Source: Rhodoligotrophos defluvii
Lineage (GTDB): Bacteria > Pseudomonadota > Alphaproteobacteria > Rhizobiales > Im1
NCBI RefSeq assembly: GCF_005281615.1
Contig: NZ_SZZM01000006.1
Location: 124,001-188,000 of the forward strand
Direction of reading: 5' to 3'
DNA: 64,000 nt
Shown: positions 4,304 through 63,648 of the stretch, piece by piece
Layout of the letters: each line of letters starts with the position of its first letter
Numbering within the stretch: position 1 is the stretch's first letter
Notes under the pieces: model-generated
Seen by the model: the letters and a program-made list of their open reading frames with translations, nothing else
What the model was told of the DNA's origin: nothing
Databases searched by the model: none
Position numbers and translations under genes: made by a program

Positions 4304-4318
4304 TGACTTTAATAGTCA
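4304..4318. promoter_or_regulatory. RirA-type iron-responsive operator (TGA-N9-TCA)
   Basis: TGACTTTAATAGTCA is a perfect TGACT/AGTCA palindrome with a 5-nt centre. It fits the rhizobial iron-responsive operator TGA-N9-TCA bound by RirA. It sits between the divergent hmuP and hmuR genes and overlaps the predicted hmuP -10 element, so repression in iron-replete cells is expected. Confidence 0.65.
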
Positions 4319-4336
4319 GCTTATCCTAGAACGCAA
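4309..4336 (-). promoter_or_regulatory. Candidate sigma-70 promoter of hmuPTUV
   Basis: On the minus strand, TTGCGT (4336-4331) and TATTAA (4314-4309) are separated by 16 bp and point toward hmuP. The -10 element is inside the TGA-N9-TCA operator. Found by eye; no start site is known. Confidence 0.35.
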
Positions 4337-4453
4337 GAGACAAGCTTTGGGGCGGGGCTCCGGCTTGGCGATGCCAGCCAAAGATCATCCGGTCGAGTAG
4401 CCAGCGAACCACACGCTCGGGGTTGAGCGGGATTTGGGTTCGGAGGGTGAACC

Positions 4454-31296: not shown

Positions 31297-32955
31297 CTAA
31301 CGCTGGTTCTCGCGCCAGCGGGGGCTGATCCAGGGCTGCTGGTTGGACGGCGGCAGGGGACTGCGGCCGAGCACGTGGTCGCTGCCCTTCTCGCCGATCA
31401 TCAGCGAGGGGGCATTGAGATTGCCATTGGTGATGCGCGGGATGATCGAGCTGTCGATCACACGCAGACCGGCGACGCCGATCACCCGGCATTCCGGGTC
31501 GACCACCGCCATTGGGTCGTCCGCCGCGCCCATACGGCAGGTGCCACAGGGGTGGTAGGCGCTCTCCACGTGTTCGCGAATGAAGCCGTCCAGCTCCTCG
31601 TCCGTGACGAGCTGCGCGCCGGGCTGGATCTCGCGACCCGCGAAACCCTTGAACGCCTCCTGCGCGAAGATCTCTCGGGTGAGCCTAAGGCAGGTGCGGA
31701 AGTCCTCCCAGTCCTCCGGGTGAGACATGTAGTTGAAGCGGATGATGGGCGGGGTTTCAGGTCTTGCGTCGCGTAGACGCACATGCCCGCGGGATTTCGA
31801 GCGCATAGGCCCCACATGGGCCTGGAAACCATGGGCCTTCACCGCCGACTTGCCGTCGTAGCGGATGGCCACGGGCAGGAAGTGATACTGGATATCGGGA
31901 TAACGGACGCCCGCCTTGGAGCGGATGAAGGCTGCGCTCTCGAAATGGTTGGTGGCGCCGAGCCCCCGCTTGAACAGGAGCCAGTTCAGGCCGATCCATG
32001 CTTTCGAGGGGAGATTGAGCTTGCTGTAGAGGGTGATGGGCTTGAGGCATTCCATCTGGAAGTAGATCTCCAGATGGTCCTGCAGGTTCTCGCCGACGCC
32101 GGGCAGGTGGTGCACGAGGGGAATGCTCAAGTCCTTGAGCTGTTCGCCATCGCCTATGCCCGACAGCATGAGCAGCTTGGGCGAGTTTATGGCCGAGGCG
32201 GCGAGCACCACCTCGCGCCGCGCCCCGGCGGTGAGCACGCGTCCGCCCCGGCTATATTCCACGCCGGTGGCCTTGCGGCCCTCGAACAGCACGCGCCGGG
32301 CGAGCGCCCGCGCCACCAGCCGCACGTTCCCGCGCTTGAGCGCCGGACGGAGATAGGCCCGGGCCGCCGACCAGCGCCTGCCCCGCCACACCGTCATCTC
32401 CATGGGTCCGAAGCCCTCCTGCTTCTCCCCGTTGTAATCTTCGGTGATCTCATAGCCGGCTTGGGCCCCGGCCTCGACAAAGGCATGGTAGAGCGGATTG
32501 GACCGGAGGCCGCGGGTCACGTGCAGCGGGCCGGAGGTGCCGCGCCAGCCCTCCTGCCCGCCATGCGCATTCTCCATGCGCTTGAAATAGGGCAGCACAT
32601 GGCGGAAGCCCCAGCCATAGGCGCCCATCTCCTCCCAGGTATCGTAGTCGAGGGCATGGCCGCGCACATAGACCATGCCGTTGATGGAGGACGAGCCGCC
32701 GATCACCTTGCCGCGCGGGGTGGCCAGCACGCGGCCGCCGAGATGGGGCTCGGGCTCGGAGGAGAAACCCCAGTCATAAAGGCGCATGTTCATGGGATAG
32801 GACAGGGCCGAGGGCATCTGGATCAGCGGCCCCCTGTCTGTCCCGCCATATTCCAGCACCAGGACGGAATGGCGGCCATCCTCGGAAAGGCGATTGGCCA
32901 GCACGCAGCCCGAACTGCCCGCACCCACGATGATGTAGTCGAACTCCTGGTCCAT
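31297..32955 (-). CDS. betA: Choline dehydrogenase-like GMC oxidoreductase
   Basis: The 552-residue flavoprotein has the FAD motif [36 protein letters not shown], a GMC signature 2-type region ([20 protein letters not shown]) and the C-terminal catalytic region [14 protein letters not shown]...[22 protein letters not shown]. BetA oxidises choline to betaine aldehyde at the membrane. The assignment over other GMC enzymes rests on the overlapping betI regulator and the divergent choline transporter. ATG 32955 is chosen; a GTG at 32964 overlaps the betI stop. Confidence 0.87.
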
Positions 32956-32960
32956 GCCGG

Positions 32961-33548
32961 TCACGCCCGGTTCAGCGCGATCTGGCTGTCCACGTAATCG
33001 CGCGTGAGCGTGCGCGGGACCTTGGGATCATCGGGTCCGCCGTGCAGTGCATATTGCAGCCACAACCCGTCGATCATGGCGACCGTGCCCTCGGCCACGG
33101 TCTTCACCCGTTCAGCACCGACCATCGGCTTCAAGGCATTGGCGAGGTCGGAGCGCAGGCGCCGAGCATAGACCCTCAGGATGCGCAACAGCCGGGGTGA
33201 ATGTTTCGCCTGGCCGTAGAGGGCAAGCCAGGCGGCCATGACTTCGGGGGCGAACTGCTCGTCCGCCAGGCAGGCATCAATGATGGCATGCACCCGCTCG
33301 ACTGGCGTGCGCGCCTTGGCCAAGCGCGCGACCGCCGCCTGGCGCAGATCCTCCAGCAGGTGGCGCATGGTCTCGAACAGCAGGTCGTCCTTGTCCTTGA
33401 AATAGTGGTGGACGATGCCGGCGGACACGCCGGCGCGAGCCGCGATCTTCGAGACCGTCGCATCCTGAAGGCCATGGTCGTGGATCGACATGATCGCCGC
33501 ATCGATCAATTGCCGCCGCCTGATGGGCGCCATTCCGAGCTTGGGCAT
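32961..33548 (-). CDS. betI: TetR family repressor BetI
   Basis: The 195-residue protein begins [19 protein letters not shown], the hallmark of BetI. The HTH ([28 protein letters not shown]) and BetI C-terminal domain ([22 protein letters not shown]) follow. It represses choline uptake and oxidation genes until choline is present. It precedes betA by a few bases and is divergent from choX, so it can control both transcripts from the 33549-33709 gap. Confidence 0.95.
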
Positions 33549-33588
33549 TGCCTCCGCCGAACAAATGCTGCTTCGCGGGATTCCTACA

Positions 33589-33617
33589 TTGTCATTGGTT
33601 GGTCATTCAATTAAAAA
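33589..33617 (+). promoter_or_regulatory. Candidate choX promoter with BetI-like repeat
   Basis: TTGTCA (33589-33594) and TAAAAA (33612-33617) are spaced 17 bp. GTCATT occurs at 33591 and again 11 bp later at 33602, and ATTG-N10-CAAT spans 33595-33612. The AT-rich patch and repeats make this the likely control site between betI and choX. Found by eye. Confidence 0.4.
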
Positions 33618-33709
33618 TACTGGCGGCTACCTGTGATTGGTTGCCCCAGGGGCGCCGAAACAGGCCGTTGCCACGAGAACCGGAACAAGTCGGCAGGGGA
33701 GAGGGCGTC

Positions 33710-34666
33710 ATGCGCAATTCTGTGAAAGGCATGGTGGCGGCAGCCGCCATGGGATTAGGAGTGCTCGCCGGCTCGCTGGCCGCAAGCGCCCAGGAGCCGG
33801 CCTCGTGCAAGGTGGTGCGCTTTTCCGACGTGGGCTGGACCGATATCACCGCCACCACCGGGCTTGCGTCCGTGGTGCTTTCGGCGCTCGGCTACGAGCC
33901 CCAGGTGCAGGTGCTCTCGGTGCCGGTGACCTATGCCAGCCTGAAGAACAAGGACATCGACGTGTTCCTGGGCAACTGGATGCCCACCATGGAGGCCGAC
34001 ATCAAGCCTTACCGGGAAGACGGATCGGTGGAGACCGTGCGCACCAATCTGGAAGGGGCGAAATATACCCTGGCGGTGCCGAGCTATACCTATGAGAAGG
34101 GACTCAAGAGCTTTGCCGATATCGCCAAGTTCAAGGACGAGCTCGGCGGCAAGATCTACGGCATCGAACCGGGCAACGACGGCAACCGGCTGATCCTGGG
34201 CATGATCGAAAAGGACCAGTTCGGCCTGAAGGGTTTCGAGCTGGTTGAGAGCTCCGAGCAGGGCATGCTCTCCCAGGTGCAGCGCGCCACTCGGCGCAAC
34301 GAGGACATCGTGTTCCTCGGCTGGGAGCCGCATCCGATGAACACCAACTTCCAGCTCAAATATCTGGAGGGCGGCGACGAGGTGTTCGGCCCCAATCTCG
34401 GTGGTGCGACAGTGCACACCAACGTGCGCAAAGGTTATCTCGAGGAATGCCCCAATGTGGGGCAGTTCCTGAAGAATCTCAGCTTTACCCTGCCCATGGA
34501 GAACGAGATCATGGGTGCGATCCTGGACAAGGGCCAGTCGGCCAATGATGCGGCCAGTGCCTGGCTGAAGCAGCATCCTGAGGTTCTGGACGACTGGCTC
34601 GAGGGCGTGAAGACGTTCGACGGCCAGGACGGCCGTGAAGCCGTCAAAGGAAAGCTCGGCGCATGA
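33710..34666 (+). CDS. choX: Choline ABC transporter substrate-binding protein ChoX
   Basis: The 318-residue periplasmic protein has a signal peptide (GLGVLAGSLAASAQ). The ChoX/ProX fold contains VRFSDVGWTDITATTGLASVVL, VPVTYASLKNKDIDVFLGNWMPTM, YGIEPGNDGNRLI and FLGWEPHPMN. The aromatic residues Trp and Tyr in these stretches fit the cation-pi box that holds choline. ATG 33710 follows GGGGAGAGGG. It feeds ChoW and ChoV. Its stop overlaps the next gene by 4 bp. Confidence 0.95.
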   Translation: MRNSVKGMVAAAAMGLGVLAGSLAASAQEPASCKVVRFSDVGWTDITATTGLASVVLSALGYEPQVQVLSVPVTYASLKNKDIDVFLGNWMPTMEADIKPYREDGSVETVRTNLEGAKYTLAVPSYTYEKGLKSFADIAKFKDELGGKIYGIEPGNDGNRLILGMIEKDQFGLKGFELVESSEQGMLSQVQRATRRNEDIVFLGWEPHPMNTNFQLKYLEGGDEVFGPNLGGATVHTNVRKGYLEECPNVGQFLKNLSFTLPMENEIMGAILDKGQSANDAASAWLKQHPEVLDDWLEGVKTFDGQDGREAVKGKLGA

Positions 34667-50750: not shown

Positions 50751-51353
50751 TTATGCCCTGATTTCGAGCCCCAACCCCTCGGCCTGATGCACCAGCCATT
50801 CCCAGTGGGACAGGGCGAAGGTGCCGGGGATATGCAGGTCGAAGATGTCGCCGTCGCTGGCGCTGCCGGAGAAGTGCAGGAGCACGCCGACGCCGTGCAT
50901 GATGGTTTGGGCAATGCTGTCGCGGGGGAATACGGCAGGGTGGAGATCGATGGGCACCACTCTGGCTAGGAGGTCCCGGGCCTTGGGGCCGGTGATGCGC
51001 ACGATGGTGCGGGCATGGGAAAGGTCGGTGACAACGGCCTCTTCCGCCGAGAAGGCCGCCTCGAGCCGTTGGCGCAGATCGGAGGATGCGGGCACCACGA
51101 ACCACCAGCGCTCCGGGCCCACCTGCAGCACCGTCGTCTGGCCGCTGATACCGATGCGCATGGACGGCGGCATCGCAGTTTGCGCCACCTGCCCGGCCTT
51201 GACCGCAACTGCGCTGGCCGTGTCGGGCCAGGCGGTCAGCTGCACGGTGACGAGCCCTCGGCCTTCCGAGAGCACGACGCCCGGTTCGTCCACATTGGCG
51301 CCGTGGCGGCCGGCTTTCACATGGCCATCGAGCGCAGACAGGATCTCAGCCAC
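50751..51353 (-). CDS. soxG: Sarcosine oxidase gamma subunit
   Basis: The 200-residue small subunit has VGPERWWFVVP, SHARTIVRITGPKARDLLARVVPIDLHP and the end SDGDIFDLHIPGTFALSHWEWLVHQAEGLG, typical of SoxG, which is GcvT-like in origin. It overlaps soxA by 8 bp. It completes the heterotetramer SoxABDG, which oxidises sarcosine to glycine and passes the methyl carbon to THF. Confidence 0.93.
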   Translation of the reverse strand: MAEILSALDGHVKAGRHGANVDEPGVVLSEGRGLVTVQLTAWPDTASAVAVKAGQVAQTAMPPSMRIGISGQTTVLQVGPERWWFVVPASSDLRQRLEAAFSAEEAVVTDLSHARTIVRITGPKARDLLARVVPIDLHPAVFPRDSIAQTIMHGVGVLLHFSGSASDGDIFDLHIPGTFALSHWEWLVHQAEGLGLEIRA

Positions 51354-54300
51354 GGAGACGTTCTCCTTCCGGATCGAAGAAATGGGGTGAGACCACCCGC
51401 GCCGGCACGACGTCGCCCTTCAGAGGATAGCAGGCATCGACCATGCGCTCGGGCGCCTGGTCATCGCGCCCTCCCGCCACCAGGCCCAGGGCGATGTAGC
51501 GCTTGAGCTGCGGGCTGTAGGTGGTGGAGGTGACCCGGCCGAGGCCGAAGCCCGAATGATCGCCATTGTGCACATGGATGATGCTGCCAGGCCGGATGCG
51601 CGCGGCGGGATCGACCGGAAGCAGGCCCACGAAGCGCTGGCGCATGGGATCGAGGTAGGCCTCGCGCCGGGCCAGCAGCTTGCCGATATAGGGCTTGGCC
51701 TTGCTGGCCATGGCGCCGAGGCCGAGGTCGTCAAGCGTGGTGCGACCGTCGAGCTCCGGCGCCGAGACATGGCCCTTCTCGATGCGCAAGGTGCCCAGGG
51801 CCTCGGAGCCGTAAAGCACCAGCCCATGCTTCTCGCCCTTGGCCAGGATGGCATCCCACACGGCCTCGCCAAAGCCCGCCGGCGTATAGACCTCATAGGC
51901 CAGCTCGCCGGAGAAGGACAGCCGATGCACGCGCACCGGGATATCGCCGATGAAGCCTTCGCGCATGCCCATGTGGGGCAGGCCTGCATTGGACATGTCG
52001 ATTTGGGATACCAGGTCCTGCAGCAGCGACCGGGAATTCGGCCCGGCAATGGCAACGCCGGCCCACTGGTCGGTGACCGAGGTGACCGACACCTTGAGGT
52101 TCGGCCAGGCGGTCTGCAGTAGGTTTTCGAGGTGGGCCATCACCTTGGCCGCACCGGCGGTGGTGGTGGTCATGAAGTAGTGGTGCTCGGCGATGCGGGT
52201 GGTGGTGCCGTCGTCGAACACCACGCCGTCGTCGCGAAGCATCACGCCGTAGCGGCCCTTGCCGACTTCCAGCTTCGACCAGCCGTTCACATAGACCCGG
52301 TTCAGGAACTCCGCCGCGTCCGGCCCCTGCACGTCAATCTTGCCGAGGCTGGAGACGTCCACCATGCCGACGGTCGCCCGGGTCTGCTCCGCTTCGCGCT
52401 TATAGGCGGCGTTCACATCCTCGCCGGCCTTGGGATAGTACCAGGGCCGCTTCCACAGGCCCACATCGATGAAGGCGGCGCCGATACGCTCGTTCGCCCG
52501 GTGGAACGGGGTGCGGCGCACAGGCTTGAAGTGCAGTTCGGTCTCGGCGCCGGCTACTGCGCCCAGGGATACCGGCGTGTAGGGCGGCCGGAAGGTGGTG
52601 GTGCCCACATCGTTTATGGGATCTCCCCTGAGGCCCGCCAGAATCGCCAGCCCCGGCACATTGGCGAGCTTGCCCTGATCGGTGGCCATGCCGAGGGTGG
52701 TGTAGCGCTTCATGTGCTCCACCGAGACATAGCCTTCCTGGTGGGCCAGCGCCACGTCGGAGGCGGCTACATCGTGCTGGAAGTCGAGGAAGCGCTTGCG
52801 GGCGCGCAAGGGCCGCGGCGGCTTCACGTCCCAGACCGGCACGATCGGCTGCTGGGGGGCATCGGCCGGAAGGTCGCCGCCATCGAGCGCCGTGCCGGCC
52901 GTATCCGTGGCGAAGCCCAAGCTGGCGGCCGCCTGCTGACCCTTGGCGAAGCCGTCCAGTGCTGCCGCCCGGGCATCGAACTGGCCGTTGCAAGCGCCGG
53001 CAAGCCGCATGCCCGGCGCGGTCGGGTGCTCCGGCGGTATCTCGGCCAGGAAGGCGGCGGCCGTCTCGTCGTAACGCGGGCGGATGCCGCGCTGGCTGGC
53101 GAGATGCACGGCCGGGTTCCAGCCGCCGGACATGGCGACCACGTCGCAACGGATCTCCTTCCAGCCGTTGTCCGTCTGGCCCGTCTTGGCATCATAGGGC
53201 GCGACAAGGGCCTTGCGCACGCTCTTGCCACCGACCACCTGGACGACCGCGTGAGCACCGAGGATTTCGATGCCGGCCGCGCGCGCCTCGGCGGCCAAAG
53301 CCTCCGGAAGTTGGTCACGCGCGTCCGCCAGGGTGACGGCGCCAGCGCGGGCGGCATCTATGGCCGTGCGATAGGCGCTGTCGTTATTGGTGAAGACCAG
53401 GATGTTGCGGCCGGGCAGCACGCCGTAGCGGTTGACATAGCTGCGCAAGGCGGATGCGAGCATGACCCCCGGCCGGTCGTTATTGCCGAAGCCGATGGGC
53501 CGCTCGATGGCGCCGGCGGCAACGACCGCGGCCCGGGATCGCACCGTGATATAGCGGTGCCGCGGCTCGAAGGGTGCAGGCTCGGCCTTGTGGTCGGCCA
53601 CCCGCTCGACGAGACCGAACACGCCATGGTCGTAGGCGCCGAACACGGTGGTGCGCGGAAGAATGCGCACATTGTTCAAGCCGGCAAGCTCGGCCAGCGC
53701 GCGCTCCCGCCAGCGATCGGCCTCGGAGCCTTCCGGCTCGTCCAGCAGCATGCCGCCGAGCACGGGACCCTCGTCGGCCAGCACCACGCGCGCACCCGTA
53801 CGGCCGGCCGCCAGGGCGGCCGCAAGGCCAGCCGGCCCGCCACCCACCACCAGAACGTCGCAGAACAGGTTCAGCCGCTCGTAGCGGTCGGGGTCGCGCT
53901 CGTCCGCCGCAGCACCAAGGCCTGCGGCGCGGCGGATGAAGGGCTCGAACCACATCCACGCCTTCTCGGTGGGGCCCATGAAGGTCTTGTAGTAAAATCC
54001 CGCGGCGAGGAAGGGCTTCACCAAGCCATTGACCGCGCCGACATCGAAATCTAGGGATGGCCAGCGGTTCTGGCTGATGGCGGAAAGCCCGTCATAAAGC
54101 TCGGCGACCGTTGCCGGGATATTGGGCTCGCGCCGGCCGCCCGCCCTTAGCGTGACGAGCGCGTTGGGTTCGGCTGAGCCGGCGGCCACTACGCCGCGTG
54201 GCCGGTGATATTTGAAGCTGCGGCCCATGAGCGTGACGCCATTGGCAAGGAGGGCCGAGGCCAATGTGTCGCCGGGATGTCCCAGATAGGTGCGGCCGTC

Positions 54301-54375
54301 GAACGTGAAGCTGACGGTTCTGGAACGGTCGATGCGGCCGCCCGCGGGCAGCCTGCCCGGTGCAACGATGCTCAT
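51346..54375 (-). CDS. soxA: Sarcosine oxidase alpha subunit
   Basis: The 1009-residue subunit has an N-terminal 2Fe-2S-like ferredoxin fold ([22 protein letters not shown]), then the dinucleotide domain [32 protein letters not shown] and [24 protein letters not shown]. From about residue 600 there is a GcvT-like folate domain ([33 protein letters not shown] region, [29 protein letters not shown]). It oxidises sarcosine and hands the carbon to THF as 5,10-methylene-THF. ATG 54375 overlaps soxD. Confidence 0.95.
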   Translation of the reverse strand: [1009 protein letters not shown]

Positions 54376-54704
54376 GGCTTCATCCCCGCGACCCTCTTGG
54401 GCCGTGCTTCGGCGGGACTCTGCACCTCGGGCAGATCGGCCGGCTTCACCACATCGCGGGCCGGCACCACGCTCGTAACCTGATGAGTCAGCGTGTCGCG
54501 GGTGGCGACCAGCCATTGCCGGCAACCATAGAGATGGTGCCAGAACTCCTTATGAGGACCGCGGGGATTGTCGCGCAGATAGACATAGGTGTACCAGCGC
54601 TCCATGTCCTCGTCGGCGAGGTCGGGCCGTTCCAGGCTGGCATCGCCGCCATAGGTGAACTCTTCCAGGCTACGCAGGCCGCAATAGGGACAGTTGATCA
54701 GCAT
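54372..54704 (-). CDS. soxD: Sarcosine oxidase delta subunit
   Basis: The 110-residue zinc-binding subunit begins MLINCPYCGLRSLEEFTYGG, with Cys5 and Cys8 as ligands. The second pair is HLYGCRQW (His and Cys four apart). ATG 54704 lies 11 bp after the soxB stop, and the stop overlaps the soxA start (ATGA). Confidence 0.95.
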   Translation of the reverse strand: MLINCPYCGLRSLEEFTYGGDASLERPDLADEDMERWYTYVYLRDNPRGPHKEFWHHLYGCRQWLVATRDTLTHQVTSVVPARDVVKPADLPEVQSPAEARPKRVAGMKP

Positions 54705-54715
54705 GGGACTAATTC

Positions 54716-55969
54716 CTAATGATGTCCCGGCACGGGGCCGGCGCCCTTCTCGTCTATGGGCCGGCCGGTGCGGAAACGGTCGAGCCGGAACTTGGCGGCA
54801 ACCGGGTGCGGCTCGTCGCGGGCGATGAGATGGGCAAAGCAGAAGCCCGAGCCCGGCACCGCCTTGAAACCGCCATAGCACCAGCCGGTGTTGAGGTAGA
54901 GCCCCGGCATGGGGGTCAAGTCGATGATCGGGCTGCCATCCATGCTCATGTCCATGACGCCGGCCCAATGCCGCAGCATTCTGAGACGAGACAGGCGCGG
55001 GATGAGGGCCTTGCCCTCGGTGAGCACGTGCTCGACGATGGGCAGGTTGCCGCGCTGGGCATAGGAATTGTAGCCGTCGAGGTCGCCGCCGAACACAAGC
55101 GAGCCCTTGTCCGACTGGCTGATATAGAAGTGGCCGGCGCCGAAGGTGATGACGGTGTCGATCAGCGGCTTGATCGACTCGGTGACGAAAGCCTGCAACA
55201 GGTGGCTTTCGATGGGCAGCCGCAAGCCCGCCTTCTCCGCGAGCACGCTGGTATGGCCGGCCACGGCCATGGCCACCTTCTTCGCCCGGATGGCCCCACG
55301 CGTGGACTCCACGCCGACGATGCGGTCGCCCTCGCGGATGAAGCCGGTGACCTCGCAGTTCTGGATGATGTCCACGCCACGCATGTCGGCCGCGCGGGCA
55401 TAGCCCCAGGCGACCGCATCATGGCGCGCGGTGCCGCCGCGCCGCTGCACCAGCGCGCCATACACGGGGAAGCGGGCTTTCTCCGAAAAATCGAGATAGG
55501 GGAGTTCCTTGCGCACCTCCTCACGGGTGAGGATCTCGGCGTCGATGCCGTTGGAGCGCATGACATTGCCGCGATAGGCAAAGGCGTCGTACTGTGAAGG
55601 GGTGTGCGCCAGGTTGAACACGCCGCGGTGCGAGACCATGGCATTGTAGTTGATGTCGTGCGACAGCCCTTCCCACAGCTTCAGGGACAACTCGTAAAAC
55701 TGGGTGTTGCCATCCATCATGTAGTTGGAGCGGATGATGGTGGTGTTGCGGCCCACATTGCCGCCGCCCAGCCAACCCTTTTCCAGCACGGCCACCTTGG
55801 TGAGCCCATGCTCCTTGGCGAGGTAATAGGCGGTGGAGAGGCCATGGCCGCCGCCGCCCACCACGATCACGTCATAGGCCGGCTTGGGTTCGGGATCGCG
55901 CCAGGCGCGGCCCCAGCCCTTGTTGCCGAAGAGGCCCTCGCGGATGACGCTCGCAACTGAATAGCGCAT
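54716..55969 (-). CDS. soxB: Sarcosine oxidase beta subunit
   Basis: The 417-residue DAO-family subunit has the FAD motif VIVVGGGGHGLSTAYYLAKEHG near residue 35, GGGNVGRNTTIIRSNY, a candidate covalent-FMN His at 183 (GGTARHDAVAW), and the C-terminal PMPGLYLNTGWCYGGFKAVPGSG. It carries the sarcosine oxidation site of the SoxBDAG complex. It is the first gene of the operon, divergent from an RpiR regulator, which may control it. No glyA or glycine-betaine demethylase gene follows locally. Confidence 0.95.
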   Translation of the reverse strand: MRYSVASVIREGLFGNKGWGRAWRDPEPKPAYDVIVVGGGGHGLSTAYYLAKEHGLTKVAVLEKGWLGGGNVGRNTTIIRSNYMMDGNTQFYELSLKLWEGLSHDINYNAMVSHRGVFNLAHTPSQYDAFAYRGNVMRSNGIDAEILTREEVRKELPYLDFSEKARFPVYGALVQRRGGTARHDAVAWGYARAADMRGVDIIQNCEVTGFIREGDRIVGVESTRGAIRAKKVAMAVAGHTSVLAEKAGLRLPIESHLLQAFVTESIKPLIDTVITFGAGHFYISQSDKGSLVFGGDLDGYNSYAQRGNLPIVEHVLTEGKALIPRLSRLRMLRHWAGVMDMSMDGSPIIDLTPMPGLYLNTGWCYGGFKAVPGSGFCFAHLIARDEPHPVAAKFRLDRFRTGRPIDEKGAGPVPGHH

Positions 55970-56041: not shown

Positions 56042-56055
56042 GGCACAAATGTTCC
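56042..56055. promoter_or_regulatory. Candidate RpiR operator between soxB and its regulator
   Basis: GGCACAAATGTTCC is an imperfect palindrome (GGCACA against TGTTCC, 5 of 6 pairs, 2-bp centre) in the 130-bp divergent gap. ATCCG on its left and CGGAT 30 bp to the right add symmetry. By-eye call; the binding protein is inferred from position. Confidence 0.3.
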
Positions 56056-56099
56056 ATACTCAATTTGGTTCGGATCATTTTGCGTGCAAGGAGCGATCG

Positions 56100-56984
56100 T
56101 TGGAGGCTGTGGACCACAGGGCCATTCTCGGCAGGCTGTCCGGCGCGTTTTCCGAGCTGCCGCCGCAGCTTGCCCAGGCGGCGAAGGCGGTGCTCGATGC
56201 GCCGGAAGAGGTGGCCATGCATTCCATGCGCAGGTTTGCCGCGCGATTCGGCATCGCGCCGACCACCATGGTTCGCCTTGCCCGGTTTGCCGGTTTCGAC
56301 AGCTATGACGACTTTCGCCGGCCGTTCCAGGAAGCACTGCGCGGTGGTGGCGGCTTTGCCGATCGCGCGGAGTGGCTGCAGGGCCTGTCGGCAAGCGGCG
56401 ATATCGGCGCGGTGATCAGCGGCATGGCCGAAGCGAGCCTCAGCAATGTGGAAACGGCCTTCCGCAACGCGGATGCGGCGGTGGTGGCCAAGGCGGCCGA
56501 TGCGCTGCTCGGCGCGCGGCGGGTGTATGTGGTCGGCATTGGCGGCCTCCAGGGTCTTGCCGCCTATTTCGCCTACGTCACCCGCATGATGCTGCCGGAC
56601 GTGCGCCTCGCCTCGCCGGCCATGGCCTCCATGGTGGACGAGCTGGCGGGGATCACCGCGCGGGACGTGCTGGTGATCCTCAGTATCGAGCCCTATGCGC
56701 GCGAGACCGTGCGCACGGCCGAGCTCGCGGCCAGCCGGCGCAGCCGGGTGATTGCCGTCACCGACAGCCTCGCGTCGCCGATCGCCAAGCCGGCATCGCA
56801 TCTCCTCATCGTGCCTGCCGCGAGTCCGCAGTTCTTCCCCTCCCAAACGGCTGTGGTCGCGATGCTGGAGACCCTGGTTGCCGCCGTGGTCTCGCGCGGC
56901 GACCGCTCGCTGGTGGCACGGATCGAAGCGGTTGACCGGTTCCGCGAGGAGCAGGGCATCTACTGGCGTTCTAGCCGATCCTAA
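56100..56984 (+). CDS. MurR/RpiR family regulator (second copy)
   Basis: The 294-residue protein has an HTH_6 domain (AVDHRAILGRLSGAFSELPPQLAQAAKAVLDAPEEVAMHSMRRFAARFGIAPTTMVRLARFAGF region) and an SIS domain (about 130-260: RVYVVGIGGLQGLAAYFAYV, DVLVILSIEPYARETVRTAELAASRRSRVIAVTDS). AAGGAG lies six bases before TTG 56100, better than the unsupported ATG at 56049, so the TTG is chosen. It is divergent from soxBDAG and upstream of the SDR and thiolase genes, so it probably controls one or both. Confidence 0.88.
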   Translation: MEAVDHRAILGRLSGAFSELPPQLAQAAKAVLDAPEEVAMHSMRRFAARFGIAPTTMVRLARFAGFDSYDDFRRPFQEALRGGGGFADRAEWLQGLSASGDIGAVISGMAEASLSNVETAFRNADAAVVAKAADALLGARRVYVVGIGGLQGLAAYFAYVTRMMLPDVRLASPAMASMVDELAGITARDVLVILSIEPYARETVRTAELAASRRSRVIAVTDSLASPIAKPASHLLIVPAASPQFFPSQTAVVAMLETLVAAVVSRGDRSLVARIEAVDRFREEQGIYWRSSRS

Positions 56985-57097
56985 CGCCATCGTGTTTTTC
57001 CATAGCCAGTGACGCATAGCACGCTTGCGTGTGCGGCGGTCCACAGACGTGGCCGCGCGTGCTAGCCTCTGCGAGCGTGCAAGGCAAGGGAGGACGG

Positions 57098-57898
57098 ATG
57101 GCGAGATTACTGGGCAAGGTAGCCCTGGTGACCGGCGCGGGCTCGATCGGCCCGGGATGGGGCAATGGCAAAGCGATTTCCACACTATTCGCCCGCGAAA
57201 GCGCCCAGGTCTTCGCGGTCGACATCAACAAGCAGGCGGCCGACGAGACCCGCTCCATCATCGAAGATGAGTGCGGGGTATGCGCGACCTTCGCGGCCGA
57301 CGTTTCCAAGGCAGAGGATGTGAAGCGCGCAGTCGATGCCTGCATCGCCGCCTTCGGGCGCATCGACATTCTCGTAAACAATGTGGGTGTGGTCCGGCTC
57401 GGCAATGTGGTCGAGCTTTCCGAGGAGGAATGGGACCGCGCCAATGAAATCAACCTCAAGAGCGTGTTCCTCACCTGCAAGCATGTGCTGCCGCACATGG
57501 CGCGCCAGGGCGCGGGCGCGATCATCAACATCTCGTCCATCGCGGCAATCCGCTATACAGGCGTGCCTTACGCCAGCTACTACGCGACAAAGGGGGCGCT
57601 GCTGTCGCTGACCCGGAGCATCGCGCTCGAGTATGCCGCCAAGGGCATTAGAGCGAATTCCATCCTGCCCGGGCTGATGGACACGCCCTTGGTCTATGCC
57701 GACGTGGCCGCGGCTTACGATGCGGAGAAAGACCGCGCAGCAATCAAAGCGAAGCGCGACGCCATGTGCCCCACCGGCCGCATGGGAGACGCGTGGGACG
57801 TGGCGTATGCGGCCTTGTATCTTGCCTCGGACGAGGCAAAATATGTCACCGGAACAGAGCTCGTGGTGGACGGCGGCATTACGGCCAAATTCGCCTGA
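57098..57898 (+). CDS. SDR oxidoreductase with extended glycine motif
   Basis: The 266-residue SDR has a cofactor motif that differs from the usual TGxxxGIG: TGAGSIGPGWGNGKAISTLFA. It keeps NNVG, the catalytic Ser in NISSIAAI, YYATKGAL and the end ELVVDGGITAKFA. The Asp in FAVDINKQ favours NAD. ATG 57098 follows GGGAGGA. A thiolase gene starts 46 bp downstream and is probably co-transcribed. Confidence 0.9.
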   Translation: MARLLGKVALVTGAGSIGPGWGNGKAISTLFARESAQVFAVDINKQAADETRSIIEDECGVCATFAADVSKAEDVKRAVDACIAAFGRIDILVNNVGVVRLGNVVELSEEEWDRANEINLKSVFLTCKHVLPHMARQGAGAIINISSIAAIRYTGVPYASYYATKGALLSLTRSIALEYAAKGIRANSILPGLMDTPLVYADVAAAYDAEKDRAAIKAKRDAMCPTGRMGDAWDVAYAALYLASDEAKYVTGTELVVDGGITAKFA

Positions 57899-57944
57899 GC
57901 GGCGCGCTTCACCACTCAGCATAACCCGCAAAAGGAACAATCAG

Positions 57945-59105
57945 ATGGGCTGTATCGTAGGATGGGCGCATTCCCAGTTCGGCAAGCTCGAGGGGCAGGC
58001 GCTGGAAGAGATGATCGCGCGGGTGGCGCATGATGCGGTGAAAGACGCCGGCATCGCGTTTTCCGACATCGACGCGATCTATGTGGGCAATTTCGGCGGG
58101 TTCGAAAAGCAGAGCTTCCCGGCGGCCTTTGCGCTGGATGCGGACCCGGCCTTGCGCTTCAAGCCCGCGACGCGGGTTGAGAACGCCTGCGCCACCGGCT
58201 CGGCCGCGGTGCAGATGGGCCTGAACGAGATCTATGCGAAGAAGAGCCGGTTCGTGCTGGTGGTGGGCGCGGAGAAGATGACGGTCGCCTCGGGTGCGGA
58301 TATCGGCGATGCGCTTCTGAACGCCTCCTACCGCAAGACCGAAGCCGATACGCCGGGTGGCTTTGCCGGCGTTTTCGCCCGCATCCAGGACCTCTACCAG
58401 CAGCGCTATGGCGACCAGTCGGAGGCCACGGCCCGCATTGCCGCCAAGAACCATAAGAATGGGGTTGAGAATCCTTTCGCGCAGATGCGCAAGGATTTCG
58501 GCTTCGAATTCTGCAACACGGTGAGCGACAAGAACCCCATCGTGGTGGGCAATATCCGCCGCACCGACTGCTCGCTGGTGTCGGATGGCGCGGCCGCGAT
58601 CGTGCTGACCGATGTGGAAACGGCCATGCGCATGGCGAAGGCCGTGCATTTCCGCGGCCTGGCCCATGCCCAGGACTACTTGCCCATGGCCAAGCGCGAC
58701 ATCGTGGCCTTCGAGGGCTGCGAGGCGGCGTGGAAAAAGGCGCATGAGCGGGCCGGCACCACGATTAACGACTTGTCCTTCGTCGAGACCCATGACTGCT
58801 TCACCATTGCCGAGCTGATCGAGTACGAGGCGATGGGACTGACGCCGCGCGGCCAGGGCGCCCGCGCCATCAACGAGGGTTGGACCGAGAAGGATGGCAA
58901 GCTGCCGGTCAATCCGTCGGGCGGCCTCAAGTCGAAAGGCCACCCGATCGGCGCGACGGGCGTTTCCATGCACATCATGGCTTCGCTGCAGCTGCTGGGC
59001 CAGGCGGGCGGCATGCAGGTGAAGGACCCGCAGCTTGCGGGCATCTTCAACATGGGTGGCGCGGCGGTGGCCAATTACGTGTCCATTCTCGAGCGCCTGC
59101 GCTGA
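57945..59105 (+). CDS. Thiolase-family acetyl-CoA acetyltransferase (SCP-x-like)
   Basis: The 386-residue protein has AIYVGNFGGFEKQSFPAAFALD, the nucleophile Cys in VENACATGSAAVQMGLNEI, CFTIAELIEYEAMGL, NPSGGLKSKGHPIGATG and the end IFNMGGAAVANYVSILERL. This is the SCP-x/acetyl-CoA acetyltransferase branch, which lacks the second Cys motif of classical thiolases. Substrate unknown; the preceding SDR may make or use its hydroxyacyl partner. ATG 57945 follows AAAGGA. Confidence 0.9.
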   Translation: MGCIVGWAHSQFGKLEGQALEEMIARVAHDAVKDAGIAFSDIDAIYVGNFGGFEKQSFPAAFALDADPALRFKPATRVENACATGSAAVQMGLNEIYAKKSRFVLVVGAEKMTVASGADIGDALLNASYRKTEADTPGGFAGVFARIQDLYQQRYGDQSEATARIAAKNHKNGVENPFAQMRKDFGFEFCNTVSDKNPIVVGNIRRTDCSLVSDGAAAIVLTDVETAMRMAKAVHFRGLAHAQDYLPMAKRDIVAFEGCEAAWKKAHERAGTTINDLSFVETHDCFTIAELIEYEAMGLTPRGQGARAINEGWTEKDGKLPVNPSGGLKSKGHPIGATGVSMHIMASLQLLGQAGGMQVKDPQLAGIFNMGGAAVANYVSILERLR

Positions 59106-59453: not shown

Positions 59454-59876
59454 ATGCACCCCAGGATCGCGCTCTTCCTCGCCGTCATGTTTTTGGGGCT
59501 GGCGGCCAGCCTGGGTCAGGCCCAGCAGCAAAATTCGGCACCGTCGTATGACGCCGTGCAATCGCAGCTGTTCTTCGGGCTGCGCAGCAAGGACGGCACC
59601 GGCGTATCGGAGCAGGCCTGGGCCAAGTTCCTGGCGGAGGTGATCACGCCCCGCTTTCCCGACGGGCTGACGGTGCTGAGCGCCTATGGGCAGGGCCGCG
59701 CCGGACCGCCATCGCCGGCGCTGACGTCAGCCGAGACAACCAAGCTGCTGGTAGTCGTTCACCCGGACACGGACGAGGCGCGGCAGAAGCTTCAGGAGAT
59801 CAGGGCGGAGTATGTCCGGCGCTTCAACCAGGACTCCGTATTTCACGTCGAGGTGCCGGCCCGGATCGTCGAGTGA
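59454..59876 (+). CDS. DUF3574 family exported protein
   Basis: The 140-residue protein has a signal peptide (MHPRIALFLAVMFLGLAASLGQAQ). The DUF3574 core follows: SQLFFGLRSKDGTGVSEQAWAKFLAEVITPRFPDGLTVLSAYGQ and TKLLVVVHPDTDEARQKLQEIRAEYVRRFNQDSVFHVE. Function is unknown. ATG 59454 gives a proper signal. Its last 34 bases overlap the convergent FolD paralogue. Confidence 0.85.
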   Translation: MHPRIALFLAVMFLGLAASLGQAQQQNSAPSYDAVQSQLFFGLRSKDGTGVSEQAWAKFLAEVITPRFPDGLTVLSAYGQGRAGPPSPALTSAETTKLLVVVHPDTDEARQKLQEIRAEYVRRFNQDSVFHVEVPARIVE

Positions 59877-60805
59877 CCCTCGTCGGCTGGCTTGAGGTTC
59901 ACCACGTCCGTGGTCCCGAAGCTTTTCTCGTAAGCCGCGCGCTGGAGCGAGGCGGCCTTGATGGCATTGCGCATGAGGGTGGCGACGGTGACCGGTCCCA
60001 CCCCGCCCGGCACCGGCGTGATCCAGCCGGCAACCGTGACACAGCTGTCGAAGTCCGCGTCTCCCACCACCTTTGACGTGCCGTCCGGCAGGGTGACCTG
60101 ATTGATACCGATGTCGATCAGCGCGGCGCCGGGTTTCAGCATCTCCGCAGTGACCAGGCCGGGCTTGCCGACCGCCACGAAAACCGCATCCGCCTGCCGC
60201 GAATGGATGGCGAGATTGCGGGTCATGGCGTGGCAGACGGTGACGGTCGCGCCCTCCCCCATGAGCAGGAAGGCTATGGGCTTGCCGACGATCTCGGAAT
60301 GGCCGATCACCACCACCTCCAGGCCTTCCAGGCTGAGCGGGGTGGTCTTGAGGATTTCGACGGCCGCCACCGCCGTGCAGGGCCCCATGACCAGGTCGTT
60401 ATAGACGATGTCGCCGATGGACGAGGGGTGCAGGCCTTCCACATCCTTGAAGGGATGCACGGCGCGCTGCACCGCCCGCACCGGGATGTGCCGGGGCAGT
60501 GGCCGCTGGATGATGACGCCGCTCACCCGCGGGTCAACGTTGAGGCCGTGGATGATGCCGAGCAGCTCATCGGCACCCATGCCATCGGGATAGAAACGGC
60601 TTTCGAACTGGATGCCGACCTTCTCGGCCACGCGCGCCTGGTTGCGAATATAAAGCTCAGCCGGCTTGCTGTCGCCCACGGCGATCGATACGAGCCTGAC
60701 CGGCCAGCCGCTCTCCTTCAGCGCTTCCGCATCTTGCCGGATGACCTCGTGCATCCTGGCTGCGATCTTCCGCCCATCGAGCAGCTTGTGGGAATAATCG
60801 GTCAT
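59843..60805 (-). CDS. Divergent FolD paralogue lacking the catalytic lysine
   Basis: The 320-residue member of the methylene-THF dehydrogenase/cyclohydrolase family keeps Tyr52 and the NAD(P) region VVVIGHSEIVGKPIAFLLMGEGATVTVCH, with VTPVPGG-like [14 protein letters not shown]. However, LYIRNQAR has Gln56 where the catalytic Lys of FolD stands. VQLPLP reads IIQRPLP, and KDVDG reads KDVEG. Loss of Lys56 removes cyclohydrolase activity in studied enzymes. It may be a dehydrogenase only, or act on another substrate. It lies 228 bp from the canonical folD on the same strand. Confidence 0.88.
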   Translation of the reverse strand: MTDYSHKLLDGRKIAARMHEVIRQDAEALKESGWPVRLVSIAVGDSKPAELYIRNQARVAEKVGIQFESRFYPDGMGADELLGIIHGLNVDPRVSGVIIQRPLPRHIPVRAVQRAVHPFKDVEGLHPSSIGDIVYNDLVMGPCTAVAAVEILKTTPLSLEGLEVVVIGHSEIVGKPIAFLLMGEGATVTVCHAMTRNLAIHSRQADAVFVAVGKPGLVTAEMLKPGAALIDIGINQVTLPDGTSKVVGDADFDSCVTVAGWITPVPGGVGPVTVATLMRNAIKAASLQRAAYEKSFGTTDVVNLKPADEGHSTIRAGTST

Positions 60806-60931: not shown

Positions 60932-61012
60932 GCCCTGGATCACCGGGTCAAGCCCGGTGATGACGTAAATCGTTGAATTGCCAGCTAAAATGCCATGGCA
61001 TCCAGAGCCAAG
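60932..61012. repeat. Palindromic intergenic repeat, copy 4
   Basis: GCCCTGGATCACCGGGTCAA onward forms the hairpin TCACCGGG-TCAAG-CCCGGTGA, followed by TGACG as in the other copies. A degraded second arm, GGCATCCAGAGCC, lies about 35 bp further on. It fills the gap between the two folD genes. Confidence 0.65.
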
Positions 61013-61033: not shown

Positions 61034-61942
61034 CTAAACCGCAGTCTCCAGCAAGTACGGCTCGGGCAGGCCATTGGCGCGGCAGGTGGCGGTGAGCGTG
61101 TTGGCGAGCAGGCAGGCGATGGTCATGGGGCCGACGCCGCCCGGCACGGGGGTGATGGCGCCGGCAACCGCGGAGGCCGAAGCGAAGTCCACGTCACCCA
61201 CCAGCTTGTGCTTATCGGGTCCCTTTTCCGGCGCCGGCACCCGGTTGATGCCGACATCGATCACCGTGGCGCCCGGCTTGATCCAGTCGCCCTTGATCAT
61301 CTCCGGGCGGCCGACCGCGGCCACCAGGATATCGGCGCGGCGGCAGATGCCTGGCAGGTCGCGGCTCTTGGAATGGGCGATAGTGACCGTGCAGCTTTCC
61401 CCGAGCAGCAGCTGGGCCATGGGCTTGCCCACGATGTTAGAGCGGCCCACAACCACCGCCTCCGAGCCTGCGAGATCACCGAGCGTGTCCTTGAGCAGCA
61501 TGAGACAGCCGAGCGGCGTGCACGGCACCATGGCCTTCTGGCCGGTCGCCAAAAGGCCGGCGTTCACCACGTGGAAGCCGTCCACGTCCTTCTCCGGACT
61601 GATCGCCGCCAGCACCCGATCGGTGTTGATCTGCTTCGGCAAGGGCAGCTGCACCAGGATGCCATTCACCGTGGGGTCGGCATTGAGCTTGGCGACCAGG
61701 GCCAGCAGATCGGCTTCCGAAGTCGCAGCACCGAGCTTGTGCTCAAAGGAGGCCATCCCGACCTCCACGGTCTGCTTGGCCTTGGAGCGCACATAGACGG
61801 TACTGGCAGGGTCTTCACCCAGCAGCACGACGGCGAGGCCTGGCGTGATGCCATGCTGTGCCTTCAGGGTTGAGACCTCGTCGGCGATCCGTTCCCGCAA
61901 TCGCTCGGCGAAGGCCTTGCCGTCGATAATCCTGGCGGTCAT
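61034..61942 (-). CDS. folD: Methylene-THF dehydrogenase/cyclohydrolase FolD
   Basis: The 302-residue bifunctional enzyme has the catalytic Tyr50 and Lys54 ([10 protein letters not shown]), [23 protein letters not shown], the NADP motif [17 protein letters not shown] and [14 protein letters not shown]. It interconverts 5,10-methylene-THF and 10-formyl-THF. It follows fhs by 26 bp, so the two are one transcript that handles the carbon released by sarcosine oxidase. Confidence 0.96.
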
Positions 61943-61968: not shown

Positions 61969-63648
61969 CTAGAACAGGCCAACCACCTCGCCGGCCTCGT
62001 TGAGGCCGATGACCTCGGCCGCCGGCTTCTTGGGCAGGCCCGGCATGGTCATGATCTCACCGCACACGGCGACGATGAACTCGGCCCCCGCCGCAAGCCT
62101 CACCTCGCGCACCGGGACTACGTGGTGCGAGGGTGCGCCACGCAGGTTCGGGTCAGTGGAGAAAGAGTACTGCGTCTTGGCCATGCAGATGGGGAACCGG
62201 CCATAGCCGGCCTTCTCGTAGTCGGCGAACTGCGCCCGCACCGCCTTGTCGGCAATAGCGTCCTCCGCACCGTAGATCTCGCGACAGATGGTGCGCACCT
62301 TTTCCCACAGCGGCATATCGTCGGGATAAAGGGTGCGGAATTGGGCGTGCTCGCCCTCGGCCAATTCGGCCACCCTGCGCGCCAGCTCCTCGATGCCGGC
62401 CGAGCCCTTGCCCCAATGCTCGCAAAGCACGGCTTCCACGCCGAACTCTTTGCAATATTTCTGGATCGCCTCGATCTCGGCCATGGTATCCGAGCCGAAA
62501 CGATTGATGCCCACCACGGCCGGCACGCCGAACTTGGCCAGATTGCGCAGGTGGCGGCCGAGATTGGCGGCGCCTTTGATCACCGCCTCGACATTCTCCT
62601 TGTTCAGGTCTTCCTTGGCAACGCCGCCATGGTGCTTCAGCGCGCGGACCGTTGCCACCACCACCGCGGCCGAGGGTTTTAGCCCGGCCTTGCGGCACTT
62701 GACGTCGAAAAACTTCTCCGCGCCGAGGTCGGCGCCGAAGCCTGCCTCGGTCACCACGAAATCGGCGAGCTTCAGCGCGGTCTTGGTGGCGATCACCGAA
62801 TTGCAGCCATGGGCGATGTTGGCGAAGGGCCCGCCGTGGATGAGGGCCGGGTTGTTCTCCAGGGTCTGCACCAGGTTGGGCTGCATGGCCTGACGTAGCA
62901 GCACGGTCATGGCGCCGGCGGCCTTGATGTCGGCGGCAGTGACGGGGCTCTTGTCGCGCCGGTAGCCGATGACGATGTTGCCGAGCCGCCGTTCGAGATC
63001 GGCCAGGTCATCGGCGAGGCACAGGATCGCCATCACCTCCGAGGCCACGGTGATGTCGAAGCCCGCCTCACGCGGATAGCCGTTGGCCACCCCGCCCAGG
63101 GACGAGACGATGGAGCGCAGGGCGCGGTCGTTCATGTCGATCACGCGGCGATAGGCGATGCGCCGGATGTCGATGTTCTGCTCGTTCCCCCAGTAGATGT
63201 GGTTGTCGATCATCGCCGCCAGCAGGTTGTGGGCGGCGGTGATCGCGTGGAAATCGCCGGTGAAGTGGAGGTTGATGTCCTCCATGGGGATGACCTGGGC
63301 ATAGCCGCCGCCAGCCGCCCCACCCTTCATGCCGAAGCAGGGGCCGAGCGATGGCTCGCGGATGCAGATAATGGCCTTGCGTCCGATGCGGTTGAGGCCA
63401 TCGCCCAGGCCCACCGTGGTGGTCGTCTTCCCCTCGCCCGCCGGCGTCGGGCTGATGGCCGTGACCAGAATGAGGTGGCCGTTTGGCCGGTCCTTGAGCG
63501 AAGCGATGAATCGCTCGGAAATCTTGGCCTTGTCATGGCCGAAGGGCAGCAGGTCGCCTGGCGGGATGCCGAGCTTCTCGCCGATTTCCACGATCGGCTC
63601 GGCCTTGGCTGCTCGGGCAATCTCGATATCGCTTTTGACGTCCCCCAT
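61969..63648 (-). CDS. fhs: Formate--tetrahydrofolate ligase
   Basis: The 559-residue enzyme joins formate and THF with ATP, or runs in reverse. Motifs include the P-loop-like [70 protein letters not shown] and [22 protein letters not shown]. It is the first gene of fhs-folD. In methyl-group catabolism it can recover ATP from formyl-THF. Confidence 0.97.

Follow-up and report, generated by a model that had tools for sequence, protein, structure and literature searches.

The window analysed here, a 64,000-nucleotide stretch of Rhodoligotrophos defluvii DNA, carries two genes of the FolD family, a formate-tetrahydrofolate ligase gene and a set of sarcosine oxidase family genes:

50751–51353, minus strand: soxG, sarcosine oxidase gamma family (PF04268, 42 bits, cut-off 21)
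51346–54375, minus strand: soxA, sarcosine oxidase alpha family (TIGR01372, 1307.9 bits, cut-off 1164; scanned as 51346–54525)
54372–54704, minus strand: soxD, sarcosine oxidase delta family (PF04267, 110.1 bits)
54716–55969, minus strand: soxB, sarcosine oxidase beta family (TIGR01373, 713.4 bits, cut-off 529.45)
59843–60805, minus strand: FolD paralogue of 320 amino acids, designated as FolD-Q, with Gln56, Arg101, Glu123, His169 and Ala193 (assigned by residues and by predicted fold against the PDB)
61034–61942, minus strand: canonical FolD with Lys56, Leu101, Asp125, Arg173 and Ser197 (NCBIfam NF010785, 511.9 bits, cut-off 396)
61969–63648, minus strand: fhs, formate-tetrahydrofolate ligase (NCBIfam NF010030, 913.7 bits, cut-off 652)

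The FolD-Q reading frame begins with ATG and has GAGGAG immediately upstream. Canonical folD lies 228 bp upstream on the same strand, and fhs is 26 bp upstream of canonical folD. A GC-rich inverted repeat, spotted by eye in the gap between the two folD genes (60941–60965), may be a repeat element. The soxBDAG operon is located 4–9 kb from FolD-Q, and the two modules are separated by genes for an SIS-domain (RpiR-like) regulator, an SDR, a thiolase-like protein and a DUF3574 protein (plus strand). The C-terminal part of soxA matches GcvT-type aminomethyltransferase models, and soxG scores 85.7 bits against TIGR01375, under the cut-off of 143.95. The gene order of the locus is also kept in a genome of the same genus (G001), and so is the order of the regulator, SDR and thiolase-like genes at 56049–59105. 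Around FolD-Q of another genome of this genus (G002), fhs and canonical folD are about 5 and 7 kb off on the opposite strand, and no sox gene is labelled in the 19.9-kb stretch. The earlier note had described a FolD paralogue with Gln at the Lys56 position that keeps Tyr52 and Gln100 and lies near canonical folD, fhs and soxBDAG; we confirmed each of these points.

Elsewhere in the window (31297–34666), at a distance of approximately 16–25 kb from the sox and folD modules, are betA (TIGR01810, 856 bits), betI (TIGR03384, 232.5 bits) and the gene for a choline ABC transporter binding protein (TIGR03414, 493 bits). They provide the entry from choline to betaine into the pathway to which the sox and folD genes belong. 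The genome also has a formate dehydrogenase alpha gene (916 bits), while a search for PurU gave nothing above the cut-off (top score 97.4 bits). PurU was accordingly rejected as the exit enzyme in this genome, and Fhs is the likely one.

Active-site signature and fold of FolD-Q

FolD-Q possesses both the catalytic and the NAD(P)-binding FolD domains (PF00763, 95.1 bits, cut-off 32.8; PF02882, 189.7 bits, cut-off 27) and hence belongs to the FolD/MTHFD superfamily. It shares the two-domain fold of canonical FolD (PF00763/PF02882; NF010785, NF010786) along its full length. An AlphaFold2 model (mean pLDDT 84) matched FolD/MTHFD structures in the PDB with a best Z of 39.5 over 283 residues; Z values to the H. 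pylori, C. jejuni, human, E. coli and P. aeruginosa structures were 35.5–39.5, and only FolD chain 5nhs was lower among these FolD comparisons, at 24.4. The two proteins also share Tyr52, Gln100 and PVPGGVGP, whereas Lys56, Leu101, Asp125, Arg173 and Ser197 of canonical FolD are all replaced in FolD-Q, where Glu123, His169 and Ala193 of the window protein correspond to human Asp125, Arg173 and Ser197. The motifs of FolD-Q read YIRNQ, QRPLP and KDVEG. As for the motifs against which the earlier note had compared them, QLPLP and KDVDG are indeed found in the neighbouring canonical FolD, but YVRNK is not, the neighbour reading YVRSK.

We compared these residues in an alignment of 223 FolD rows, in which the window gene may count more than once: full-length domains were present in 254 of 255 matches, 221 of which remained after identical sequences were dropped, and two window rows were added. 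Position 56 was Gln in 117 rows and Lys in 106, and nothing else occurred. Every Gln56 row had Arg101, Glu125 and His173 (117/117 each) together with Tyr52 and Gln100 (117/117 each), while Gln56, Arg101, Glu125 or His173 appeared in none of the 106 Lys56 rows. At position 197, the Gln56 rows had His (112), Ala (4) or Gln (1) and never Ser; His196 was retained in 116 of the 117. The Lys56 rows had Asp125 without exception (106), Leu (99), Met (5) or Phe (2) at position 101, Arg (95), Ala (10) or Thr (1) at position 173, and Ser197 in 99 cases. The named loci were fetched partly via a KDVE pattern, which biases position 125; in the rows obtained free of the pattern, by whole-protein or profile searches, Gln56, Arg101, Glu123 and His169 (window numbering) were each present in 34 of 34. 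At the thresholds used, 22 positions separated the two groups, and the median identity between them was 40%.

According to passages of PMC3368264, the key residues for substrate binding and catalysis in the human enzyme are Tyr52, Lys56, Gln100, Leu101, Asp125, Gly273 and Gly276, and Arg173, His196 and Ser197 bind the 2'-phosphate of NADP. Three of these seven key residues are jointly replaced in all 117 Gln56 rows (K56Q, L101R and D125E). The NADP 2'-phosphate site, on which the earlier note was silent, is changed from GRS to GHS and from AHS to CHA or CHH, and FolD-Q therefore lacks the intact Arg173, His196 and Ser197 set of an NADP-dependent FolD. Because K56Q, L101R and D125E co-vary with the 2'-phosphate positions, the catalytic and cofactor sites have changed in step; the cofactor loop is conserved, as is much of the active site. 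Among the features of a bifunctional FolD, FolD-Q has Tyr52 and Gln100 and lacks Lys56 and the Leu101/Asp125 pair. It also passed none of the curated NCBIfam FolD models, the best score being 277.5 bits against a cut-off of 421 among the 25 models shown of the 30 that it matched.

Distribution and phylogeny

A search of 60 relatives yielded five further FolD-Q proteins with 55–91% identity. With a six-row profile, 21 of the 385 genomes sampled from the class, which is Alphaproteobacteria as judged from the named matches, gave a FolD-Q match (435–569 bits). A 299-genome sample of the phylum gave a clean split of scores: 13 genomes, each bearing the label of the class or order of the window, had a match scoring 452 bits or more, all remaining matches were at 270 bits or below, and no FolD-Q was detected among the other-class genomes of this sample. 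The named loci, the best 80 of 522 relatives, belong mainly to Rhodobacterales and also to Kiloniellaceae, Rhodovibrionaceae, the Rhizobiaceae group and others. FolD-Q is plasmid-borne in Paracoccus aminovorans and Ponticoccus alexandrii, and both of these annotated public copies are named bifunctional. FolD serves as a standard example of an enzyme combining two functions, and its homologues tend to be annotated with both activities. Our literature search, for which most subscription papers were out of reach, found no paper describing the FolD-Q variant.

We thinned the rows by identity to 45 of the 117 Gln56 and 27 of the 106 Lys56 rows, removed the five trait columns and built an IQ-TREE phylogeny from the resulting 72 rows. 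The Gln56 proteins formed one clade with a support of 100/97 and a branch length of 1.46, and one change was sufficient to explain Gln56. The earlier note had set a conserved K56Q clade against Gln56 scattered over single genomes, and the tree upholds the former. This single clade, together with the identical residues in 117 of 117 rows, led us to reject a random or sequencing change. Within the genus, dN/dS of FolD-Q (NG86) was 0.058/1.05, 0.125/0.87 and 0.112/0.98, which corresponds to ratios of about 0.06–0.14; a pseudogene was rejected on these low values and on the intact frame. Since FolD-Q forms a single clade on a long branch, has a FolD-like predicted fold and shows low dN/dS, it is a deep paralogue and not a decaying copy. 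One locus (L096), from a metagenome-assembled genome titled Opitutae, grouped with Rhodobacterales rows in the tree, suggesting a mis-binned contig or a transfer.

Gene neighbourhood and partner enzymes

All 21 carriers in the class sample possess soxA and all 21 possess fhs, against a background of 148 genomes with soxA, 174 with fhs and 126 with both among the 385. With kinship ignored, hypergeometric probabilities were 7.5e-10 by genome and 2.5e-7 by genus for soxA, and 2.8e-8 and 2.7e-6, respectively, for fhs. FolD-Q is not needed for sarcosine oxidation, because 127 of the 148 soxA genomes had no FolD-Q match.

The neighbourhood set comprised 98 loci with flanks, namely the best 80 of 522 relatives (the named loci) and 18 others. 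Only listed reference genes were tallied, 17 of the 98 loci had less than 5 kb on one side, and the figures are raw counts with no background rate. Canonical folD was found within 400 bp of FolD-Q on the same strand at 61 loci. Within 10 kb on either strand, there were fhs at 63 loci, canonical folD at 61, N-methylglutamate-type GSIII/Glx genes at five and formate dehydrogenase alpha at two; sox genes occurred at two loci besides the window, one of them from the same genus. Taken together, 72 of the 98 loci had one or more of the genes fhs, canonical folD, formate dehydrogenase alpha, sox and Glx/GSIII within 10 kb, and the other 26 had none. When fhs, canonical folD and formate dehydrogenase were required to be on the same strand, the numbers were 71 with and 27 without. 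The 72 loci with C1 genes are mostly from Rhodobacterales and represent far fewer than 72 independent cases; the 61 with folD likewise come mostly from a single order.

Individual loci illustrate the arrangement. The Ponticoccus plasmid has the order fdhF-fhs-folD-folDQ-tdm, formate dehydrogenase alpha is located 7–40 bp upstream of FolD-Q in two genomes (G176 and G281), and a 2.4-Mb genome (G362) carries two fhs-folD-folDQ tandems (L139 and L140). In a 1.2-Mb genome (G122), FolD-Q adjoins sox genes on the opposite strand. According to passages of PMC4744692, genes found around the two fhs copies of Ruegeria pomeroyi include folD, tmm, tdm and those for formate dehydrogenase. An fhs-null mutant did not grow on glycine betaine as the sole carbon source, and formate is reported to ease its defect. 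Passages of PMC3160333 name one folD of SAR11 as well as the route of THF-linked oxidation, and the passages of these two papers do not mention a variant FolD.

The link to methyl-group catabolism proposed in the earlier note thus holds for THF-linked C1 genes in general (soxA and fhs in 21 of 21 carriers; a C1 gene at 72 of the 98 loci), whereas specificity for sox does not (2 of the 98), and we rejected a sox-specific enzyme as a general rule. The interpretation given in the earlier note is partly supported: FolD-Q is probably a neofunctionalised FolD with a role in THF-linked C1 oxidation, though not one specific to sox.

A second FolD exceeded the Pfam cut-off in all 26 carriers examined, so none of these genomes relies on FolD-Q as its only FolD. 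In 25 of them the second FolD is canonical, with Tyr52, Lys56, Gln100, Leu101 (Met in one), Asp125, Arg173 and Ser197. Canonical FolD is present in most bacteria, and its occurrence beside FolD-Q is for that reason weak evidence of cyclohydrolase loss in the latter. The second FolD of the 26th carrier (G075) is divergent, with Glu in place of Gln100, and adjoins FchA, which is a dedicated cyclohydrolase:

L135 (G075:C6) 5028–5915 and 4312–5673, minus strand: divergent FolD beside FchA

This divergent FolD, which has a very long branch and an unsure placement in the 72-row tree, is possibly a second, independent loss of cyclohydrolase. No FchA was detected with PF04961 in the other 25 carriers, and FchA was rejected as the usual partner of FolD-Q (1 of 26). 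The case of G075 is telling with respect to the probable loss of cyclohydrolase in FolD-Q.

Probable function of FolD-Q

On balance, we lean towards FolD-Q being an alphaproteobacterial subfamily of methylene-THF dehydrogenases that no longer catalyses the cyclohydrolase step and probably favours NAD+. Oxidases of the sarcosine, N-methylglutamate or dimethylglycine type would deliver methyl groups as 5,10-methylene-THF, which FolD-Q would oxidize to 5,10-methenyl-THF with the formation of NADH. Canonical FolD (or FchA) would then open the ring to give 10-formyl-THF, Fhs working in reverse would convert 10-formyl-THF to formate and ATP, and formate dehydrogenase would produce CO2 and further NADH. 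The dehydrogenase activity, the loss of cyclohydrolase, the use of NAD+ and this direction of flux are inferred.

Human K56Q reportedly keeps dehydrogenase activity and loses cyclohydrolase activity. The earlier note had stated that Lys56 is needed for the cyclohydrolase step, and the literature agrees in part: passages of PMC3338484 describe the lysine as the general acid/base of this step, and those of PMC3368264 likewise assign proton transfer to it, but in Table 2 of PMC6443876 silkworm Lys53Ala keeps cyclohydrolase activity, with a kcat/Km of 0.097 versus 0.13. Loss of Lys56 alone thus does not settle the loss of cyclohydrolase. PMC3368264 additionally implicates Lys56 in hydride transfer, so the dehydrogenase of FolD-Q could suffer too. 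Gln is, on the other hand, compatible with dehydrogenase activity in that MTHFD2 K88Q retains about 70% activity in PMC7434776, a value that its authors read as inhibition. Silkworm D120A loses dehydrogenase activity with methylene-THF (Table 2 of PMC6443876); the D125E change of FolD-Q retains a carboxylate. D125E and L101R, which are located at the pterin end, go beyond what a plain loss of cyclohydrolase would need.

It is unlikely, though it merits attention, that FolD-Q is still bifunctional, with another group, such as the invariant Arg101 or a water held by Gln56, replacing Lys56 and the other changes only tuning cofactor use or kinetics. Arg101 occurs exactly where Lys56 is lost (117/117), Tyr52 and Gln100 are unchanged, and the silkworm Lys53Ala result fits this explanation as well. 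It is opposed by the proton transfer assigned to Lys56 (PMC3338484 and PMC3368264) and by the presence of another candidate cyclohydrolase in all 26 carriers, although most bacteria keep a canonical FolD.

We consider it rather improbable that the substrate of FolD-Q is another folate or C1 adduct, the pocket having been reshaped at its pterin end by Arg101 and Glu123 to take a different oxidation state or derivative, which would make this a new reaction of methyl catabolism. According to PMC11387627, Leu101 (through its backbone oxygen) and Asp125 of MTHFD1 contact the diaminopyrimidine head of inhibitors; positions 101 and 125 are changed in all 117 Gln56 rows, and 22 positions split the two groups. 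However, Tyr52, Gln100 and a carboxylate at position 125 are retained, the Leu101 contact is made by the backbone, and the gene context suits ordinary oxidation of methylene-THF. A non-enzymatic FolD-Q that forms a heterodimer with canonical FolD and has a regulatory or structural role there is very unlikely: canonical folD is within 400 bp on the same strand at 61 of the 98 loci (the best 80 of 522 relatives and 18 others), but the remaining loci are not beside canonical folD, 26 of the 98 have none of the C1 genes sought, and conservation extends to the cofactor loop and a large part of the active site.

For the preferred dehydrogenase, the loss of Arg173 and Ser197 suggests NAD+ as the cofactor, whereas a His at the 2'-phosphate site can also bind phosphate. 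The FolD-Q profile scored human MTHFD2/MTHFD2L and silkworm MTHFD at 268–272 bits and human MTHFD1 at about 243, a preference that points weakly to NAD+; the canonical FolD of the window shows the reverse preference (MTHFD1 about 268 bits versus 228), and the FolD proteins of P. aeruginosa and X. albilineans reach 274–276 bits with the FolD-Q profile, as high as MTHFD2 or above. The residue and the profile arguments for NAD+ are both indirect. The PxTA-x-A stretch of FolD-Q is also present in silkworm MTHFD and MTHFD2L. MTHFD2/MTHFD2L and silkworm MTHFD use NAD+ or NADP+ (PMC6443876); they keep the equivalents of Lys56, Leu101 and Asp125 (for the human enzymes, Table 1 of PMC11387627), which FolD-Q is without, and are called bifunctional.

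Yeast MTD1 (1edz) is 27% identical to FolD-Q, with a Z of 29.6. It is reportedly an NAD-dependent, monofunctional methylene-THF dehydrogenase (Barlowe and Appling, 1990, is said to be the source), which is what the residues alone lead us to propose for FolD-Q; the loss of cyclohydrolase in FolD-Q would be independent of that in MTD1. Split systems are known as well, and Aluri (2016) is said to describe the FolD and FchA arrangement. Passages of PMC7219735 and PMC3621897 place cyclohydrolase on a separate protein in Clostridium perfringens (FolD and FchA) and Methylobacterium (MtdA and Fch), respectively. FolD-Q differs in that its second protein is a canonical FolD in 25 of 26 carriers.

A more ambitious reading, which we regard as speculative, is that FolD-Q constitutes an unrecognised alphaproteobacterial family, misnamed bifunctional in public records, in which Arg101 and Glu123 in the pterin pocket and His169 and His/Ala193 in the cofactor site reflect a rebuilding for the oxidation, with a yield of NADH, of a folate intermediate that derives from methyl groups. 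This intermediate may be other than plain methylene-THF, and FolD-Q would act in a relay together with canonical FolD, Fhs and formate dehydrogenase during the catabolism of methylated amines and betaine. The clade in any case offers a natural test of the roles of Lys56, Leu101 and Asp125, three of seven key residues being replaced in step. Many alphaproteobacteria carry a second FolD with the same active-site changes, which probably performs half of the job of FolD in an energy-yielding oxidation of methyl groups. If true, FolD-Q would alter models of how alphaproteobacteria convert the methyl groups of choline, betaine and methylamines to NADH and ATP.
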